Below, one piece after another: positions 853-33,623 of a stretch of 35,937 bases of DNA (its first letter is position 1; each line of letters begins with the position of its first letter). A program made the translations under genes and the position numbers. The DNA is from Candidatus Bathyarchaeota archaeon (GTDB lineage Archaea > Thermoproteota > Bathyarchaeia > Bathyarchaeales > SOJC01). A model generated the notes under the pieces. The model saw only the letters and a list, made by a program, of their open reading frames with translations. It ran no database searches and was not told where the DNA came from. The stretch covers positions 1 to 35,937 of the forward strand of contig JAGLZW010000034.1 of assembly GCA_023131225.1 (NCBI GenBank), given 5' to 3'.

Positions 853-1491
853 CTATGATTTTTTCATGGTTAACTTTGAAAGAGTATAATAAACGATTTC
901 TCCGCGGCGGTTCACAACCACCAAAACCAGCTTCTTTTTCAAGCTTTGAGCATGCTTCAACACACGAGCCATATGTTTTACCGAAATAGGCTTGCCTTCC
1001 TGAATCCCGAGAACGAGATAAGTGGCAGTGGCTTTTCCATACTCTCCCCTTTCGTAAACTCGAAAATCTATTCCTAACCCGAATCCCTCCCTCACCACGT
1101 AACCACGGCTTCTCAAATCTCGATAAATCAAATATTTCACCCAAACATTTTCATCCGCAAGCCCGAAACGATGCAGAAGCTCTTGGAAATCTAAAGCCTT
1201 ACGCGATTTTCCTCTAAAAACTTCAAGTATTCCCTTGCTTTGGAGAAACAGGGCTTCGTAGAAACTCAAAGTCAATTTTCTATTTTCTAGTATTCCGTAG
1301 CCGCGAGAAGCGAAGTTTTCAAAACCGTCACTAGCTGACACTGTAACACCTTTTTTTGAAAGTGAGCCCTTAATCTTCTTGATTTCAGAATTCCGAGACT
1401 CTTCGACTTGCCGTTTCTTATCCTTCAAAGCCTTGTCCTGCCAACACAAACTAATAGCATACAAATTATGAGATATATAACTAGTCTTCAA
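853..1491 (-). CDS. endA: tRNA-intron endonuclease family protein (EndA-like, catalytic His replaced)
   Basis: 212 residues. The C-terminal half matches the archaeal tRNA splicing endonuclease fold (YLIYRDLRSRGYVVREGFGL, then IDFRVYERG, then KKKLVLVVVNRRGEIVYY). The family cuts introns at bulge-helix-bulge motifs with a Tyr/His/Lys triad. The Tyr (Y146) and the Lys region (K185-K187) are present, but where homologues have His three residues before the Tyr of the YLV strand this protein has Thr (T155, codon ACT). It could be a non-catalytic structural subunit of an (alpha-beta)2 enzyme, as known in some TACK archaea, or an altered active subunit. The start is TTG at 1491, overlapping the mtnA stop (TTGA), which suggests translational coupling. 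The N-terminal 45 residues are not well conserved in my reading, so the start is not certain. Confidence 0.85.
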   Translation of the reverse strand: MKTSYISHNLYAISLCWQDKALKDKKRQVEESRNSEIKKIKGSLSKKGVTVSASDGFENFASRGYGILENRKLTLSFYEALFLQSKGILEVFRGKSRKALDFQELLHRFGLADENVWVKYLIYRDLRSRGYVVREGFGLGIDFRVYERGEYGKATATYLVLGIQEGKPISVKHMARVLKHAQSLKKKLVLVVVNRRGEIVYYTLSKLTMKKS

Positions 1492-3471: not shown

Positions 3472-3563
3472 TGGCGGGCCCGCTGGGATTCGAACCCAGG
3501 GTCTCCGGCTTAGAGGGCCGACGCGCTTTCTGTTGAGTAATATCCAGGCTACGCCACGGGCCC
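3472..3563 (-). tRNA. tRNA-Arg(UCU) with encoded CCA, expanded D-loop and C33
   Basis: Full cloverleaf on the minus strand: acceptor GGGCCCG/CGGGCCC, discriminator G and encoded CCA; D-stem GCGT/GCGC; anticodon stem TCGGC/GCCGG (one G-U pair) with loop CCTCTAA; 5-base variable loop; T-arm CTGGG-TTCGAAT-CCCAG. Anticodon UCU reads AGA (Arg). Two oddities: the D-loop is 24 bases (AGCCTGGAT then about 14 extra bases before A-GCGC), and position 33 is C instead of the nearly universal U. The extra bases could be a tiny intron at a non-canonical site, but I could not draw a bulge-helix-bulge around them. A decaying gene is also possible, although all stems pair. Confidence 0.85.
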
Positions 3564-3589: not shown

Positions 3590-3599
3590 AAATATAATT
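3590..3599 (-). promoter_or_regulatory. TATA element of tRNA-Arg
   Basis: AATTATATTT on the minus strand, centred about 31 bases before the tRNA 5' end, the spacing expected for an archaeal promoter with a transcript start near the mature end. Confidence 0.5.
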
Positions 3600-3949
3600 C
3601 TTTTACTGTAGTGTGAAAAGTTTATGCATCTGCCTTCCAAGAAGGTGCTAGGTTTCGCATGATGTCTTTCTAAGAAAGTCTGAAAGAGGATATGAGTTTT
3701 AAGCCATGGCCTATCATCATAGATTTGGAATAATGTCTCCTAGTTCATAGAAGAATCTTACTATATTCTTTTTTAACTTGTTTTCTGTATAAGTTATTTT
3801 GGGGTGTAAGTTCAAGTCTTTACGTTTCTCTTTTCTCCCTTCTCTTCGGCAGATTAGAATGAACAACATGAACTTACACTCTACCTAAGTATTTATGTAG
3901 ACTCAAGACTTAAATCCCGCAAGTCAAAACTTGTATATAGGGGAAGGTT
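3600..3949. other. 350-base gene-poor region with an 11-base inverted repeat
   Basis: No convincing ORF on either strand. It contains a short palindrome near 3667-3679 (CTTTCTAAGAAAG) and a perfect inverted repeat GTGTAAGTTCA (3804-3814) / TGAACTTACAC (3869-3879) with a 54-base spacer. An AT-rich TATA-like stretch (AAGTATTTATG, about 3887-3897) and a purine-rich site GGGGAAGG precede the gene at 3950. Confidence 0.5.
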
Positions 3950-19626: not shown

Positions 19627-19723
19627 AGATAGATTTACATAGTAAACCAGTTGAGAAGCCATCTGAACATTCCATTTTTTATCCAAAATTGTGGGCATGC
19701 AAGCGAATAGAAGATTCTTTCAG

Positions 19724-19735
19724 AAATATTAATAG
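19724..19735 (+). promoter_or_regulatory. TATA-like element of the subtilase gene
   Basis: AAATATTAATAG. Transcripts would begin near 19755, just before the binding site GGGGGAAAGA and the GTG at 19767, which supports that start over the upstream in-frame TTG at 19689. Confidence 0.45.
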
Positions 19736-19766
19736 TTGCCGAGACATAGGGAGTTTGGGGGAAAGA

Positions 19767-22700
19767 GTGAGAAAATTAGCTTCAGCGGTTATTCTGGCAT
19801 TGCTTTTGGTTAGCACACTAGCACTAGCATTTAACATTCAACCAGCTGAGGCAGAATCTAAAGCTCAAACTGTGGATAACACTGTATCAGCAGGCTTTTC
19901 AGAAATACAAGAAATTGTGACCGAAATGAATCCAACGAAAACCTGCCGTAATTCAATAACCCAGTTGTCTAAATCAGCAACCAAATCTTTTTTCAAAAAC
20001 GAATTGCATGCACAATCGACGGGTATATTTCCACTGCCTTTTGAGGAGTGCGATAAGTGGTATTTTGGCAAAGAAGTAAAGTGGGGTGATTTTGCTTATG
20101 TTGATGATGATTCTGCAGAGCTCGTAATAGGACTTAACGACCTACGGCCAAGGAGTTACTCCGAGATCGATGATTTAATTGTAAGCAGTGGTGGAGAACT
20201 TGTCAACACAATTTCAATAGATGGCAAAGTAACTGCCATTGTAGCTGATATGCCTTATGAAGTTATGCCTATTTTTGTATCAGAAGTTCGGATGGCAAAG
20301 TTGTCGAGGTATATCGAGCCTAACGTGAGGTTCGAGGTTGATCTTGTTCCAAATGATCTTGGTTGGTTGAAGCAATGGGGGCCAGTCAAGATAGAGGCAG
20401 ATAAAGCTTGGGACACGCAAACTGGCAATCCTTCGGTTCTTGTGGCAGTAATTGATACAGGTATTGACTGGAATCACCCTGATTTGGCTGCTAATTACGT
20501 TGCCTTAGGATACGATTGGGTGAACAATGACCCAGATCCCATGGACGACGTAGGACATGGTACTCATTGCGCTGGAATAATTGCTGCTGTACTCAACAAC
20601 AAAATAGGTATAGCAGGATTAGCTCAAATTCAAATTATGGCTGAGAAAGGTCTGGGACCTAGAGGAGGACGATCAGACGAGCTCGCCAAAGCCATTATTC
20701 ATGCAGTAGATCAAGGAGCAAAAATTCTCAGTTGTAGTTGGGGTAGTGGTGTGAAAAGCAATGTTGTGCGCGAGGCTCTGGAATACGCTTATGACCACAG
20801 TGTATTGGTGATTGGATCAGCTGGAAACAACGCTGCAAGCATGGAGCGCTATCCCGCTGCTTACGACGAAGTTGTAGCAGTTACTGCAACCGACGAATTT
20901 GACGATCCAGCTGAGTTTACCAACTTTGGGGACTGGGTTGAAGTTGCAGCGCCTGGCGTTTACATATACTCGACGATTTGGGACGATTCATATGCACATA
21001 TGAGCGGTACATCGATGTCAGCCCCACATGTTTCTGGTGTTGCTGCTTTGATTTGGAGCCAGTTTCCAAGCATGTCACGAGATCAAGTGTACGCTCAACT
21101 GCGTTTCACCGTGGACGACTTGGGCTCGTCTGGGTTTGACGAGTATTATGGGTATGGGAGAGTCAACGCACGGAAGGCTGTAGAGCAAACTCCATCTGAT
21201 CATGATGTCTTTGTTTTGAGATTGAAGACGCCTTCCTATATGAGACTTGACCGTCCAGCAGCTATCGATGCTGCTATACTTAACATGGGAACAAAAGACG
21301 AAGGCGACATAATAGTACAACTGTTGGTTAATGGCAGCTTAGTTGACTCAAAAACCATTGGCTTCTTGGTAAGTGGTGCATCTACTTCTGTGAACTACTC
21401 GTGGACACCAACGATTGAAGGGGCATATAATATCACAGTTCACGTGGTGCCTGTAATTGGCGAAACTATCATTAATAATAACGCCTTATCCACACAAAAA
21501 AGCGTCAAAATATCTCAACTCATCAGGGTTCCAGAGGATTATGGTACAATACAAGGTGCAATAGATGTTGCAAAGGCAGGAGACACCATTTCCGTGGCTT
21601 CTGGAACATATTATGAAAACATATGGATAAATGAGGAAGACTTAATGCTTGTTGGAGAAAATATGAATAGTACCATTATTCAGGGAGAAGTTGTTGTGGC
21701 TGCAGACAATGTTAACGTCAATGGCTTCACAATTCAGAATGCTTACTTTGGCATAGCAGTTTATGGTTCTAGAGATAGCATAATCAACAATACAAGAACC
21801 TTAAACAACGAAATTGGAATATACATTCTTTATTCCGCCAATATTACCCTTGTGAACAATTACATGGCTGGCAACAGCAACAACTTGGACGTCGATGGCT
21901 ATTCACTTAGCGATTTTATTCATAACGTTGATGCTTCTAATTTCGTTAATGGAAAGCCAGTATATTATTGGATTGATGAACATGACAAGCAGGTTCCTCC
22001 TGACGCGGGTTACGTAGCCGCAGTGAACTGTACAAAAATCGTGATTAAGGATTTAAATCTGACAGATAACGGTGAAGGCGTGTTACTCGTTTGCACGAAT
22101 GAGTCTGTTATAGAGAATATAAATGCATCAGACAATTATGATGGCGTGTATCTAGCATATTCTGTCAACAATACTGTGGGTCGCTGCTTAGTAACAAGCA
22201 ACTATAATGGTATTTACTTGTATGAATCTATAGGTAACAATGTCAGCCATAATCTAGTGATCGATAATGAGAAAGGCATATACTCATATTATTCAAGTTA
22301 CAACAGAATTAACTTCAATGAGTTGCTGAACAAAGATGTCGGTCTCCTTTTGGACAAATCGAGCAATACCACGGTTAACAACAACAGAATATTAAACAGC
22401 ACAGACGGCATTTACTTAAAAAAATCTAGCTGTAACATCCTTAGAAACAATAACATGACAAATAACGAATACAACTTTAGGGTTACGGGTAGTTGTCTCC
22501 TGCATTTTTCTCAAGACATCGACAATTCCAACACAGTTGATGGCAAGCCAATTTATTACTGGTTGAATCAAAAAAATAAACAAATTCCAGTTGATGCAGG
22601 ATATGTAGCAGTCGTAAACTCCACAAACATTGCTGTAAGAGACCTGAACCTAACAAACAATGCACACGGTGTACTCTTTGCATTTACTGCCGAATCCCTC

Positions 22701-24302
22701 ATAGAAAATGTGAATACTTCAAAAAATACGTATGGAATCTACCTGTACAATTCCTTCAACAACGCTGTAGTGGGCAACACAGTAACCTCAAAGAGTAAAC
22801 GTGGCATTCAACTGATTGGTTCCAACAGTAACACCATTAGCAACAACCTAATTACACGCAATTACATTGGCATTGGTCTATGGTTATCCGCTGAAAATAA
22901 TACGATTAATAATAATGCAATATCTAACGGTACTTTGGGGGGTGTTGGAATTTACCTGAGCCATTCTATCAGCAATGCTATCGTCAACAACACCGTAACA
23001 AACAATGAACATGGCATTACGCTGTACCAATCAAATAGTAGTACTCTTCTGAAAAACATAATTTCAGACAACGAACAGGGTGGTGTCTTCTTATTTTATT
23101 CCAGTGGTAATGTTCTCAGAGAGAATAACATGAGTGGCAACGAGTACAATTTCGGAGTTGATGGATATTTCCTCTCGCACTTTGTTCAAGACATTGACAC
23201 TTCAAATACTGTAGATGGAAAGTCTATTCACTACTTGGTGAACCAACATGATCAAACGATTCCAACCACTGCTGGATATGTAGCTGCCATAAATTCCACA
23301 AGCATAACTATAAGAAACTTAGACACAGAAAACAACCTGCAGGGAGTATTACTCGCTTACACAACAAACTCCACAATAATGGATGTGACAACCTCCTGTA
23401 ACCTCAACGGTATTTACCTATGGTATTCTGAGAATAACACGATAAATGGAAACAACGTTACAAACAACGAAGAGGACGGTATTGGTCTACACTATTCCAA
23501 TGGCAATACTCTCAGTGGTAATACACTAGAAGACAACTTGATTGGCATAGATATCTACACTGCATCGCACAAGAATACAATTTGCAATAACACAGTATTG
23601 AAAAACGTCGGCGGCATCATGTTATATCATTCTGACGATAATATCATTAGCGAAAACAACGTTACAGGTGGTATCGAAGCACCAAATGGTTTAATAGGCA
23701 TATCATTAACCGCATCTGAAAGCAACATATTAAGCCAAAATACTGTATCTGTCAATCAATTTGTTATTGGTGCAGGAATCCTTTTAGAGTTGTCTTCTAC
23801 AAATAATACCATTGTTCGGAATACACTATCGGAAAACATGGTTGGCATCTGGATGCGCTATTCTGACGATAGCACAGTGTACCACAACAATTTCATCGAC
23901 AATTCAAGGCAAGTAATGAGTTTCAACTCAATTAACATTTGGGATAATGGTTATCCTTCAGGTGGAAGCCACTGGAGCGACTACAATGGAACAGACTTGT
24001 ACAGTGGGCCCTATCAGAATGAGACGGGAAGTGATGGAATAGCAGACGCACCATTCGTTATCGATGGGAACAACACAGATAACTATCCGCTCACAAAGCC
24101 TTGGATGCCTGTTACAGGCACGGGCGATTTAAACCACGATGGAAAAGTAAATATTTTCGACATAGTATTGGCAGCGTCAATCTACGGATGCAGAGAAGGA
24201 GAACCAAACTGGAACCCAGAGGCAGACCTAGCTCCGAAATACGGAGTAATAGACCTATTCGACTTAGTGACAATAGTATACCATTATGGACAAAGCTGGT
24301 AG
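19767..24302 (+). CDS. Secreted subtilisin-like protease with CARDB-like, beta-helix (NosD/PbH1) and dockerin domains
   Basis: 1511 residues from GTG 19767 (site GGGGGAAAGA). Order: signal peptide (about 1-30, MRKLASAVILALLLVSTLAL, then cleavage near AEA); propeptide region; peptidase S8 domain with Asp230 (VIDTGID), His264 (GHGTHC), oxyanion Asn354 (SAGNN) and Ser416 (GTSMSAPHVSG); a CARDB/APHP-like beta domain (about 475-585); a long right-handed beta-helix rich in Asn turns, starting PEDYGTIQGAIDVAKAGDTI and holding three 94-residue repeats; the NosD-type end (HWSDYNGTDLYSG, DNYPL); and a type I dockerin (about 1452-1511) with two calcium loops (GDLNHDGKVNIFDIV and a second ending DLVTIVYHYG). 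All catalytic residues are present. It probably acts outside the cell on proteins or polysaccharide-bound material, docking to a cohesin encoded elsewhere. Confidence 0.93.
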   Translation: MRKLASAVILALLLVSTLALAFNIQPAEAESKAQTVDNTVSAGFSEIQEIVTEMNPTKTCRNSITQLSKSATKSFFKNELHAQSTGIFPLPFEECDKWYFGKEVKWGDFAYVDDDSAELVIGLNDLRPRSYSEIDDLIVSSGGELVNTISIDGKVTAIVADMPYEVMPIFVSEVRMAKLSRYIEPNVRFEVDLVPNDLGWLKQWGPVKIEADKAWDTQTGNPSVLVAVIDTGIDWNHPDLAANYVALGYDWVNNDPDPMDDVGHGTHCAGIIAAVLNNKIGIAGLAQIQIMAEKGLGPRGGRSDELAKAIIHAVDQGAKILSCSWGSGVKSNVVREALEYAYDHSVLVIGSAGNNAASMERYPAAYDEVVAVTATDEFDDPAEFTNFGDWVEVAAPGVYIYSTIWDDSYAHMSGTSMSAPHVSGVAALIWSQFPSMSRDQVYAQLRFTVDDLGSSGFDEYYGYGRVNARKAVEQTPSDHDVFVLRLKTPSYMRLDRPAAIDAAILNMGTKDEGDIIVQLLVNGSLVDSKTIGFLVSGASTSVNYSWTPTIEGAYNITVHVVPVIGETIINNNALSTQKSVKISQLIRVPEDYGTIQGAIDVAKAGDTISVASGTYYENIWINEEDLMLVGENMNSTIIQGEVVVAADNVNVNGFTIQNAYFGIAVYGSRDSIINNTRTLNNEIGIYILYSANITLVNNYMAGNSNNLDVDGYSLSDFIHNVDASNFVNGKPVYYWIDEHDKQVPPDAGYVAAVNCTKIVIKDLNLTDNGEGVLLVCTNESVIENINASDNYDGVYLAYSVNNTVGRCLVTSNYNGIYLYESIGNNVSHNLVIDNEKGIYSYYSSYNRINFNELLNKDVGLLLDKSSNTTVNNNRILNSTDGIYLKKSSCNILRNNNMTNNEYNFRVTGSCLLHFSQDIDNSNTVDGKPIYYWLNQKNKQIPVDAGYVAVVNSTNIAVRDLNLTNNAHGVLFAFTAESLIENVNTSKNTYGIYLYNSFNNAVVGNTVTSKSKRGIQLIGSNSNTISNNLITRNYIGIGLWLSAENNTINNNAISNGTLGGVGIYLSHSISNAIVNNTVTNNEHGITLYQSNSSTLLKNIISDNEQGGVFLFYSSGNVLRENNMSGNEYNFGVDGYFLSHFVQDIDTSNTVDGKSIHYLVNQHDQTIPTTAGYVAAINSTSITIRNLDTENNLQGVLLAYTTNSTIMDVTTSCNLNGIYLWYSENNTINGNNVTNNEEDGIGLHYSNGNTLSGNTLEDNLIGIDIYTASHKNTICNNTVLKNVGGIMLYHSDDNIISENNVTGGIEAPNGLIGISLTASESNILSQNTVSVNQFVIGAGILLELSSTNNTIVRNTLSENMVGIWMRYSDDSTVYHNNFIDNSRQVMSFNSINIWDNGYPSGGSHWSDYNGTDLYSGPYQNETGSDGIADAPFVIDGNNTDNYPLTKPWMPVTGTGDLNHDGKVNIFDIVLAASIYGCREGEPNWNPEADLAPKYGVIDLFDLVTIVYHYGQSW
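21873..22154 (+). repeat. 94-residue internal repeat, copy 1
   Basis: 282 bases. Key residues: VDGYSLSDF, NGKPVYYW, DAGYVAAVN, DLNLTDN. Part of the beta-helix region; each copy interrupts runs of short beta-helix coils. Confidence 0.8.
22464..22745 (+). repeat. 94-residue internal repeat, copy 2
   Basis: 282 bases, the same length as the other copies with no gap. Key residues: VDGKPIYYW, DAGYVAVVN, DLNLTNN. It starts 591 bases after copy 1. Confidence 0.8.
23139..23420 (+). repeat. 94-residue internal repeat, copy 3
   Basis: 282 bases. The most diverged in the middle (VDGKSIHYLVNQHDQ, TAGYVAAIN, NLDTENN). It starts 675 bases after copy 2. Confidence 0.8.
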
Positions 24303-32135: not shown

Positions 32136-33623
32136 TTAACCTTTCACAACTGCCAATGGGAACAGTTGAGCGACACGTGTGGCAATTCCTACTTTGTCGC
32201 TTACCTCCACCACTTTATCTACATTCTTATAAGCCGGATCAGCTTCCTCTGCAAGGACAACCGCACTTGCCGCTCGAACCACCATTCCACGTTTCTCCAA
32301 AGCCCTTTTAACATCACCACCCCAGAACCTTCGTCTTGCCGCAGTTCGACTCATCATTCTACCAGCCCCGTGAGCCGCAGACCCAAAAGATACTTCCATA
32401 GCTTTCGCCGCGCCAACCAGAAGCCACGAGCTTGAACCCATGCTCCCTGGAATAATAACAGGTTGCCCAAATTCGCGGTAGTCAACGGGCACATCAGGAT
32501 TACCTGGTGGAAAAGCTCTCGTAGCCCCTTTCCGGTGAATCCAAACTTTCTTGCGTTGACCGTTAACTTGATGTTCTTCAATTTTAGCGATATTATGTGC
32601 CACATCATAGACAAGTTGAAGACCGAATGTTTCCGCTGGCTGCTTGAACACACGTTCAAAACTTTGTCTCACCAAATGTGTTATGGCTTGGCGGTTAGAG
32701 AAGGCATAATTAACTGCACATGACATCGCTTGGAAATAGTCTTCTGCTTCTTTAGTATTCCCAGGGGCGCACGCAAGCTCTCGATCAGGTAAGTTAATTT
32801 TGTATTTATGCACCGCTCGCTCCATTACTCGGAGATAGTCGGAACAAATCTGATGTCCATAACCACGAGAACCGCAATGAATCATGACAGTGACTTGTCC
32901 TTCCTCATTTATGCCGAAGGCTTTAGCCACATCAGGATTGTAGATTTTGCCAACTTTCTGAATTTCAAGGAAATGGTTGCCTGAGCCTAAGGTGCCAATT
33001 TGAGTTGTTCCCCGGTTTTTGGCCGTGGTTGAAACTTTATCGGAGTTTGCTGATTTCATATTGCCTCTCTCCTCACAATGTTCAACATCTTCTTTCCATC
33101 CCATTCCCTTCTCTACAATCCACGGAACCCCTTCTACTGCTAGTCTGTCGAGTTCGTTTGTTGTGATTCGAAAATCTTTTCTGCGGCTACCGAGGCCGCA
33201 TGGAACGTTATTGAACATCGTGTTTGTCAAATCTGTTAGCTTGGGCTGTACGTCTTCTTCGCTGAGGTTGGTCGTCAGTAGTCTTACGCCACAGTTTATG
33301 TCGTACCCTACCCCTCCAGGACTGATAACCCCTTCTTCATAATCTGTCGCGGCAACTCCTCCAATAGGGAAGCCGTATCCTTCATGTCCATCAGGCAATG
33401 TTATTGCGTACTTGTAAATACCCGGCAAATGAGCGACATTGGTGCATTGTTCCAACGTTCTGTCTGTCTTCATTTTTTCCAATAGTTCTTCATCTGCAAG
33501 TACTAAACCTGGAACGCGCATCCCGGGTTTGTATTTTTGTGGGATGCGCCACGAGTAGTTATCAAGTCTTTCAAGAGGGACGTTATAGATCGCGCGTCTC
33601 TTCTGTCTCGTTTTATTCAACAC
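32136..33623 (-). CDS. rtcB: RNA-splicing ligase RtcB
   Basis: 495 residues, no intein. GTP- and Mn-dependent ligase that joins tRNA halves made by the splicing endonuclease, using 2',3'-cyclic phosphate ends. Signatures: LPGIYKYAITLPDGHEGYGF, GYDINCGVRLL (metal Cys), GTLGSGNHFLEIQKVG, HCGSRGYGHQ, YDVAHNIAKIEEH, HRKGATRAFPPG and the guanylylated His in AAHGAGRMMSR (about residue 418). GTG start at 33623, with TTG one codon downstream as an alternative; no ATG is nearby. A 7-base inverted repeat (33620-33642) covers the start. No archease gene is adjacent. Confidence 0.96.
   Translation of the reverse strand: MLNKTRQKRRAIYNVPLERLDNYSWRIPQKYKPGMRVPGLVLADEELLEKMKTDRTLEQCTNVAHLPGIYKYAITLPDGHEGYGFPIGGVAATDYEEGVISPGGVGYDINCGVRLLTTNLSEEDVQPKLTDLTNTMFNNVPCGLGSRRKDFRITTNELDRLAVEGVPWIVEKGMGWKEDVEHCEERGNMKSANSDKVSTTAKNRGTTQIGTLGSGNHFLEIQKVGKIYNPDVAKAFGINEEGQVTVMIHCGSRGYGHQICSDYLRVMERAVHKYKINLPDRELACAPGNTKEAEDYFQAMSCAVNYAFSNRQAITHLVRQSFERVFKQPAETFGLQLVYDVAHNIAKIEEHQVNGQRKKVWIHRKGATRAFPPGNPDVPVDYREFGQPVIIPGSMGSSSWLLVGAAKAMEVSFGSAAHGAGRMMSRTAARRRFWGGDVKRALEKRGMVVRAASAVVLAEEADPAYKNVDKVVEVSDKVGIATRVAQLFPLAVVKG

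Follow-up and report, generated by a model that had tools for sequence, protein, structure and literature searches.

A very probable 14-nt D-loop intron and a conserved C33 in the tRNA-Arg(UCU) gene of a Bathyarchaeota archaeon

The analysed stretch of DNA, hereafter referred to as the window, comprises 35,937 nucleotides of contig JAGLZW010000034.1 from the genome of a Candidatus Bathyarchaeota archaeon (G000), whose family is designated f1. The window contains the start of an archaeal 16S rRNA, and no plasmid match was found for it. The record CP070765.1 (Candidatus Bathyarchaeota archaeon bin257) has 50 of 51 sampled 60-mers surrounding the tRNA described below in common with G012, another genome of f1, which places the window within or beside Bathyarchaeia. 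By visual inspection, the 1537-aa open reading frame at 19689-24302 on the plus strand appears to specify a protein with a subtilisin-like protease part, numerous NosD-like beta-helix repeats after it and a tail resembling a dockerin. The tRNA-Arg(UCU) gene is located on the minus strand at 3475..3563, with G1 at 3563 and N73 at 3475, and is followed by an encoded 3' CCA at 3472..3474. Read from 3563 to 3472, the gene has the composition GGGCCCGTGGCGTAGCCTGGAT-ATTACTCAACAGAA-AGCGCGTCGGCCCTCTAAGCCGGAGACCCTGGGTTCGAATCCCAGCGGGCCCG-CCA. The predicted 5' exon (3542..3563) ends with ...CTGGAT, the 14-nt insert ATTACTCAACAGAA occupies positions 3528..3541 within the D-loop, and the 3' exon AGCGCG...CCCG (3475..3527) includes the anticodon UCU at 3512-3514 and, at 3515, a C33 where U is nearly universal. 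All four stems are paired, and the D-loop is 24 nt long, which is the length of the spliced form plus 14. Approximately 30-40 nt upstream of the gene, the sequence AAAGAATTATAT (3592..3603, minus strand) represents a candidate archaeal BRE/TATA-like element that has similar counterparts in most members of family f1; both observations were made by visual comparison.

The genomic form of the gene was missed by two tools. ARAGORN called no tRNA at 3475-3563 when introns were also allowed and none in the window in its default run, and the Rfam tRNA model assigned 24.3 bits to the gene, which is under the cut-off of 29. When the exons were joined after excision of the insert, ARAGORN called a tRNA-Arg(tct), whereas the genomic form remained uncalled; the closed D-loop of the spliced tRNA would read ...CUGGAUAGCGC.... 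The minimum-energy fold of the precursor consists of a cloverleaf with an additional small CUG-CAG hairpin within the D-loop, and its energy was no better than that of shuffled sequences (z -0.80). Since both ARAGORN and Rfam miss the gene, genome annotation could wrongly report tRNA-Arg(UCU) as absent.

Within family f1, an insert of 14-17 bases was present at the same site in all 11 orthologues that could be aligned over their full length, that of the window included, and each of them also carried C33. The combination of insert and C33 is not a chance event, because it is shared by 11 of 11 alignable orthologues with near-identical exons. The initial annotation had described a tRNA-Arg(UCU) with paired stems, an encoded CCA, about 14 extra bases in a D-loop of 24 nt and a C at position 33; each of these elements was confirmed, and the strand, which had not been stated, can now be added. 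Inserts of 13-20 bases were also detected in the D-loops of G018, G019, G013 and G027, which belong to three other families. Of the order's 27 C33 genes, 11 contain a D-loop insert and 16 do not: the insert occurs in 11 of the 12 C33 genes of family f1, that of G007 being uninterrupted, and the D-loop is uninterrupted in the 15 C33 genes from other families.

The 15 alignable D-loop inserts from the four families were used to analyze a potential splice helix between exon and intron. The exon strand of this helix is represented by the four bases directly upstream of the AT with which the 5' exon ends (CTGG, TTGG or ATGG; CTGG at 3544-3547 in the window), and the intron strand by a tetramer separated by two bases from the 3' terminus of the insert (CCAG, CCAA, CCAT and variants thereof; ACAG at 3530-3533 in the window). 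These 4-mers formed 55 of 60 possible pairs, compared with 34 of 60 in the best of ten shifted registers, and none of 20,000 shuffles within the introns reached 55 pairs (mean 26). The outer pair of the helix was C-G in eight, U-A in five, A-U in one and A-G in one of the inserts; it was accordingly formed in 14 of 15 copies, and 10 of 20,000 permutations were as good. These covariation statistics ignore phylogeny, and close relatives such as G000 and G001 are non-independent. The 3' bulge reads AA|A or AG|A in all 15 inserts, with AA|A at the 3' end of the window copy. Four pairs, with one G-U counted, were found in 10 of the 15 copies, and a mismatch in five, including that of the window, in which CTGG and ACAG form three Watson-Crick pairs and one G-A mismatch. 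Between the two helix strands, length and sequence of the inserts drift freely, whereas the exons barely change.

According to these data, the 14 bases very probably constitute a small non-canonical intron with the predicted cuts GGAT|ATTACTCAACAGAA|AGCGC. A small atypical intron was one of the explanations initially proposed, and it is strongly supported by the covariation, by the presence and absence of the insert among relatives and by the splicing machinery described below. The earlier failure to draw a strict bulge-helix-bulge is explained as well, because the window copy has a relaxed one. Relaxed motifs designated hBH, HBh' and BHL are described for archaeal tRNAs in sections of PMC6379350, which also record D-loop positions. 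The candidate intron resembles archaeal introns with relaxed bulge-helix-bulge motifs in its small size, in its location outside position 37/38, in the exon-intron helix with a 3-nt bulge at the 3' splice site and in the clean tRNA that is restored by its removal. It differs from them in being very short (14 nt, and 13-20 nt in relatives) and in the mismatched helix pair of the window copy. A D-loop intron of this kind was not found described for the lineage of the window in the literature searched.

Alternatively, the 14 bases might be retained as a tolerated enlarged D-loop, corresponding to the structural expansion that had also been considered. The folding of the genomic sequence into a cloverleaf with an extra D-loop hairpin would be compatible with such retention, as would the relaxed motif of the window copy. 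We regard this explanation as very unlikely, however, since the helix covaries in 15 genes at exactly the spacing of EndA introns and is accompanied by the invariable bulge types, since the sequence between the helix strands drifts while the exons are nearly constant, and since relatives possess an uninterrupted loop. Many further tRNA inserts in the same genome likewise speak against retention: at least 13 of the 43 tRNA genes contain inserts or introns, a tally composed of eight genes with introns called by ARAGORN and five genes missed by ARAGORN and read by eye, tRNA-Arg(UCU) included.

Several other interrupted tRNA genes were observed in this genome. The tRNA-Glu(UUC) gene at locus L043 (G000:C28:37699-37877, minus strand), which was missed by ARAGORN, has an apparent intron of about 20 nt near base 9, before the D-stem. 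In the tRNA-Pro(GGG) gene at locus L047 (G000:C8:75836-76041, minus strand), the D-arm is interrupted by an insert of about 50 nt, and D-loop inserts are also present in the Leu(CAA) (L038) and Leu(UAA) (L046) genes.

Two genes of the window encode proteins related to tRNA splicing. The EndA-family protein encoded at 853..1488 on the minus strand probably represents the structural (beta) subunit of the tRNA-splicing endonuclease. Its alignment to 1a79, which we take to be the EndA of Methanocaldococcus, indicated that the catalytic Tyr and Lys are retained and that the His of the triad is replaced by Thr, so that the altered active site noted in the initial annotation is correct in sequence. 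The second gene (32136..33623, minus strand) encodes the tRNA-splicing ligase RtcB (Pfam PF01139, E 2.7e-175). A catalytic EndA is encoded on contig C20 of the same genome. Two EndA-family genes were detected in 11 of the 13 genomes searched, and a single one in each of G005 and G014. The residues Tyr, His and Lys are intact in all 12 aligned sequences of the catalytic type, and the partner of the window type has Thr (11 of 12) or Pro (1 of 12) at the His position; an EndA with an intact triad and the additional loop of the Aeropyrum type, together with a His-less partner, recurs across family f1.

The best matches of the catalytic EndA were the chains of 3p1z and 3ajv, presumably the EndA of Aeropyrum pernix; 3ajv has Ala at the position of the catalytic His when compared with 3p1z. 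The similarity included a GYYG.PL...KP insertion, which we take to be the Crenarchaea-specific loop. This assignment is in line with text of PMC6379350. As in the (alpha-beta)2 enzyme of A. pernix, the catalytic and structural subunits are encoded by separate genes and the catalytic subunit carries the GYYG.PL...KP insertion; unlike in A. pernix, the structural subunit keeps its N-terminal domain as well as Tyr and Lys, only the His being lost. The EndA homolog of the window therefore looks like the non-catalytic structural subunit of a two-subunit enzyme and not like an oddity. According to a passage of PMC6379350, relaxed motifs are removed efficiently only by EndA of the two-subunit and epsilon-2 types.

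With respect to these components, we infer from the sequence features that the precursor of tRNA-Arg(UCU) would actually be spliced. In the transcript, the exon bases CUGG would pair with (A)CAG of the intron and form a short relaxed bulge-helix-loop. The inactive-looking EndA subunit of the window, together with the catalytic subunit encoded elsewhere, would cleave the transcript on the 3' side of GGAU and on the 5' side of AGCGC, and the exons would be ligated by RtcB to give a normal cloverleaf.

The initial annotation had raised the possibility of a decaying gene, and both C33 and the insert depart from a textbook tRNA. The results contradict this view and make a pseudogene extremely improbable. 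The search for a second tRNA-Arg(UCU) that had been proposed detected none in the genome of the window (1.92 Mb in 50 contigs, 100% complete by estimate). AGA is the commonest arginine codon in 27 selected open reading frames of the window, accounting for 169 of 466 arginine codons, with 46 being AGG. Moreover, exons with the same departures are conserved in all alignable orthologues of family f1, and the stems, the CCA and the upstream TATA-like box are intact. We consider it highly likely that the locus represents a functional, apparently single-copy tRNA-Arg(UCU) gene with a 14-nt D-loop intron, which would be spliced by a two-subunit EndA and RtcB, and with an inherited C33.

U33 is regarded as essentially invariant in elongator tRNAs, in which it makes the U-turn. 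When genes missed or misframed by ARAGORN were read by eye, C33 was present in two of the 43 tRNAs encoded by the genome of the window, namely tRNA-Arg(UCU) and tRNA-Arg(CCU). Of the 162 genomes of the order, 27 matched an exact pattern representing C33-UCU, in every case in a tRNA context, with a distribution of 12 of 13 genomes in f1, 13 of 21 in f9, the single genome of f3 and one of three in f5. The corresponding U33-UCU pattern matched in 52 of the 162 genomes, and 83 genomes matched neither pattern. No UCU gene was detected among the 33 tRNA matches of G010, a member of f1 in which one stretch consists of N. In the C33 tRNA-Arg(UCU) genes at loci L251-L264 (family f9 and G016 of f5), a second insert near the junction of acceptor stem and D-arm was observed besides the intron at position 37/38.

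A first pattern for tRNA-Arg(CCU) matched in 30 genomes and revealed C33 in eight members of f1 and in G051, and U33 in the remaining 21; all eight members of f1 with a match therefore have C33. A second pattern yielded U33 in 20 of 20 matches, all of them outside f1, in f9, f3 and f5. Since tRNA-Arg(CCU) has U33 in these three families and tRNA-Arg(UCU) often has C33, the data argue against a strict coupling of the two arginine tRNA genes. Extra copies of the 3' end of tRNA-Arg(CCU), 42-44 nt in length, were observed beside unrelated sequence at loci L104 and L107 (G051) and L105 (G013), as left by elements integrating at a tRNA-Arg(CCU) gene.

Among 398 genomes of the phylum, a set that overlaps with the order, C33-UCU was also detected in G443, G466 and G488 of the same class and in G397, G401, G405 and G432 of family f27; a hit in G250 is doubtful. 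Family f27 appears to correspond to Acidilobaceae, as an Acidilobaceae record (UBA158) among the matches listed contains the same C33 gene in intronless form. In G405, C33 was found in tRNA-Arg(UCU) and, at loci L326 and L333, in tRNA-Gly(UCC) and tRNA-Gly(CCC), among 43 tRNA matches; other C33 flags in this genome resulted from misframed intron genes. A contig-wide scan with the C33 pattern returned at least 119 loci, mostly chance matches in bacteria, and 13 of the matches listed were tRNA-like. As judged from these genome comparisons, C33 is a conserved family trait and neither an error nor a sign of decay.

No report of C33 in an archaeal tRNA-Arg was found in the open-licence literature. 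The closest known case is provided by the tRNA-Cys(GCA) of Sulfolobales, for which excerpts of PMC7668247 describe a clade-conserved C33 instead of U33 in combination with C35, and the statement that the authors could not isolate this tRNA. Both cases concern archaeal elongator tRNAs in which C33 is conserved in a clade; they differ in that the tRNAs affected here are Arg(UCU) and Arg(CCU) in genomes of the Bathyarchaeia type and Arg(UCU) in Acidilobaceae. The eukaryotic initiator tRNA-Met, presented in part of PMC9023262 as a natural functional tRNA with C33, is likewise a natural tRNA with this base, but it is an initiator and not an elongator. Of the two features of the gene, the conserved C33 in an AGR-reading tRNA-Arg is the more surprising one; as far as the DNA is concerned it is real, and it represents a variant of a rarely noted exception.

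A clue to the origin of C33 was provided by the UCU genes with an intron at position 37/38, in which bases 32-35 pair with the intron. The intronic base opposite C33 is G in 14, U in five and A in none of 19 genes, and the base opposite U33 is A in 13, G in 12 and U in four of 29 genes; the difference between A and G is significant when phylogeny is ignored (Fisher p = 0.0009). Base 33 therefore follows its intron partner. All 27 C33 genes of the order carry an intron, 16 of them at position 37/38 and 11 in the D-loop. C33 probably originated via this pairing: in precursors with a 37/38 intron, a U33-G pair would have changed to the stronger C33-G pair, the 37/38 intron would then have been lost in most of f1, and C33 would have stayed. 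Five of the 19 genes in which C33 faces a 37/38 intron do not fit, as the opposite U forms no pair. Moreover, the CCU gene of f1 and the genes of f27/Acidilobaceae have C33 without a 37/38 intron, and intron pairing is thus not the whole story. The more comprehensive reading, namely that selection on the precursor overwrote U33 with a C matching an intronic G, that this base persists after loss of the intron, and that decoding and possibly t6A37 have adapted to it, is a tentative possibility.

As to the mature RNA, we moderately favor the view that C33 stays unedited, and C33 would then most likely be used as C in decoding. Deamination of C33 to U after transcription, base editing of C33 being a further option named in the initial annotation, would give a normal U-turn in the mature tRNA and has a precedent in the C-to-U editing at base 8 described for Methanopyrus kandleri in part of PMC3695527. 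In both cases a genomic C stands where nearly all tRNAs have U; the position is another one, and the text on Methanopyrus refers to 30 tRNA species, compared with two of 43 tRNAs here. The restriction of C33 to two tRNAs and its stable inheritance are as expected for an editing site, and the helix in which C33 mostly lies in precursors with a 37/38 intron could define a target. Editing is nevertheless unlikely, as a single C-to-T mutation would end the need for it, yet C33 persists. In addition, a search confined to the PF00383 family detected no deaminase in the genome of the window, a further point of difference from the Methanopyrus case, and among 61 relatives PF00383 was present in five of 22 C33-UCU genomes and in 13 of 17 U33-UCU genomes. 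PF00383 was set aside as a candidate editing enzyme, being rarer and not commoner in C33 genomes.

C33 might also have been favored by selection because of its own effect in mature AGR-reading tRNAs, either by weakening the U-turn and thereby balancing strong anticodons that contain C35, or by blocking t6A at A37, a modification that would be needless since C33 cannot pair with A37. C35 and A37 are common to the C33 tRNAs detected in this analysis (f1: Arg UCU and CCU; G405: Arg UCU, Gly UCC and Gly CCC), and the CCU gene of f1 has C33 without any intron. Other C35 tRNAs keep U33, among them the two Gly tRNAs of the genome of the window that combine C35 with C36, which weighs against such a role. 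To our knowledge, Gly tRNAs are not t6A substrates, and an explanation by t6A misses the two Gly tRNAs with C33 in G405; it was set aside as a sole explanation. The Sulfolobales tRNA-Cys(GCA) with C33 likewise has C35 (PMC7668247, in part). A section of PMC9654439 names C33 among the anti-determinants for the t6A enzymes of bacteria and yeast and states that pairing of U33 with A37 is prevented by t6A. Selection for an own effect appears rather doubtful on balance. C33 could block t6A and at the same time lessen the need for it; anti-determination as given in that section would also represent a cost for an AGA-reading tRNA, which counts against the explanation preferred here, an inherited C33 in a functional tRNA.

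The association between base 33 and its intron partner suggests how constraints on splicing can shape the mature tRNA. An apparently sole AGA-reading tRNA with C33, which occurs in another archaeal family as well, makes the acceptance of C33 by the ribosome directly testable, and the clade with C33 likewise offers a direct test for the existence of an unknown editing system or for the dispensability of t6A.
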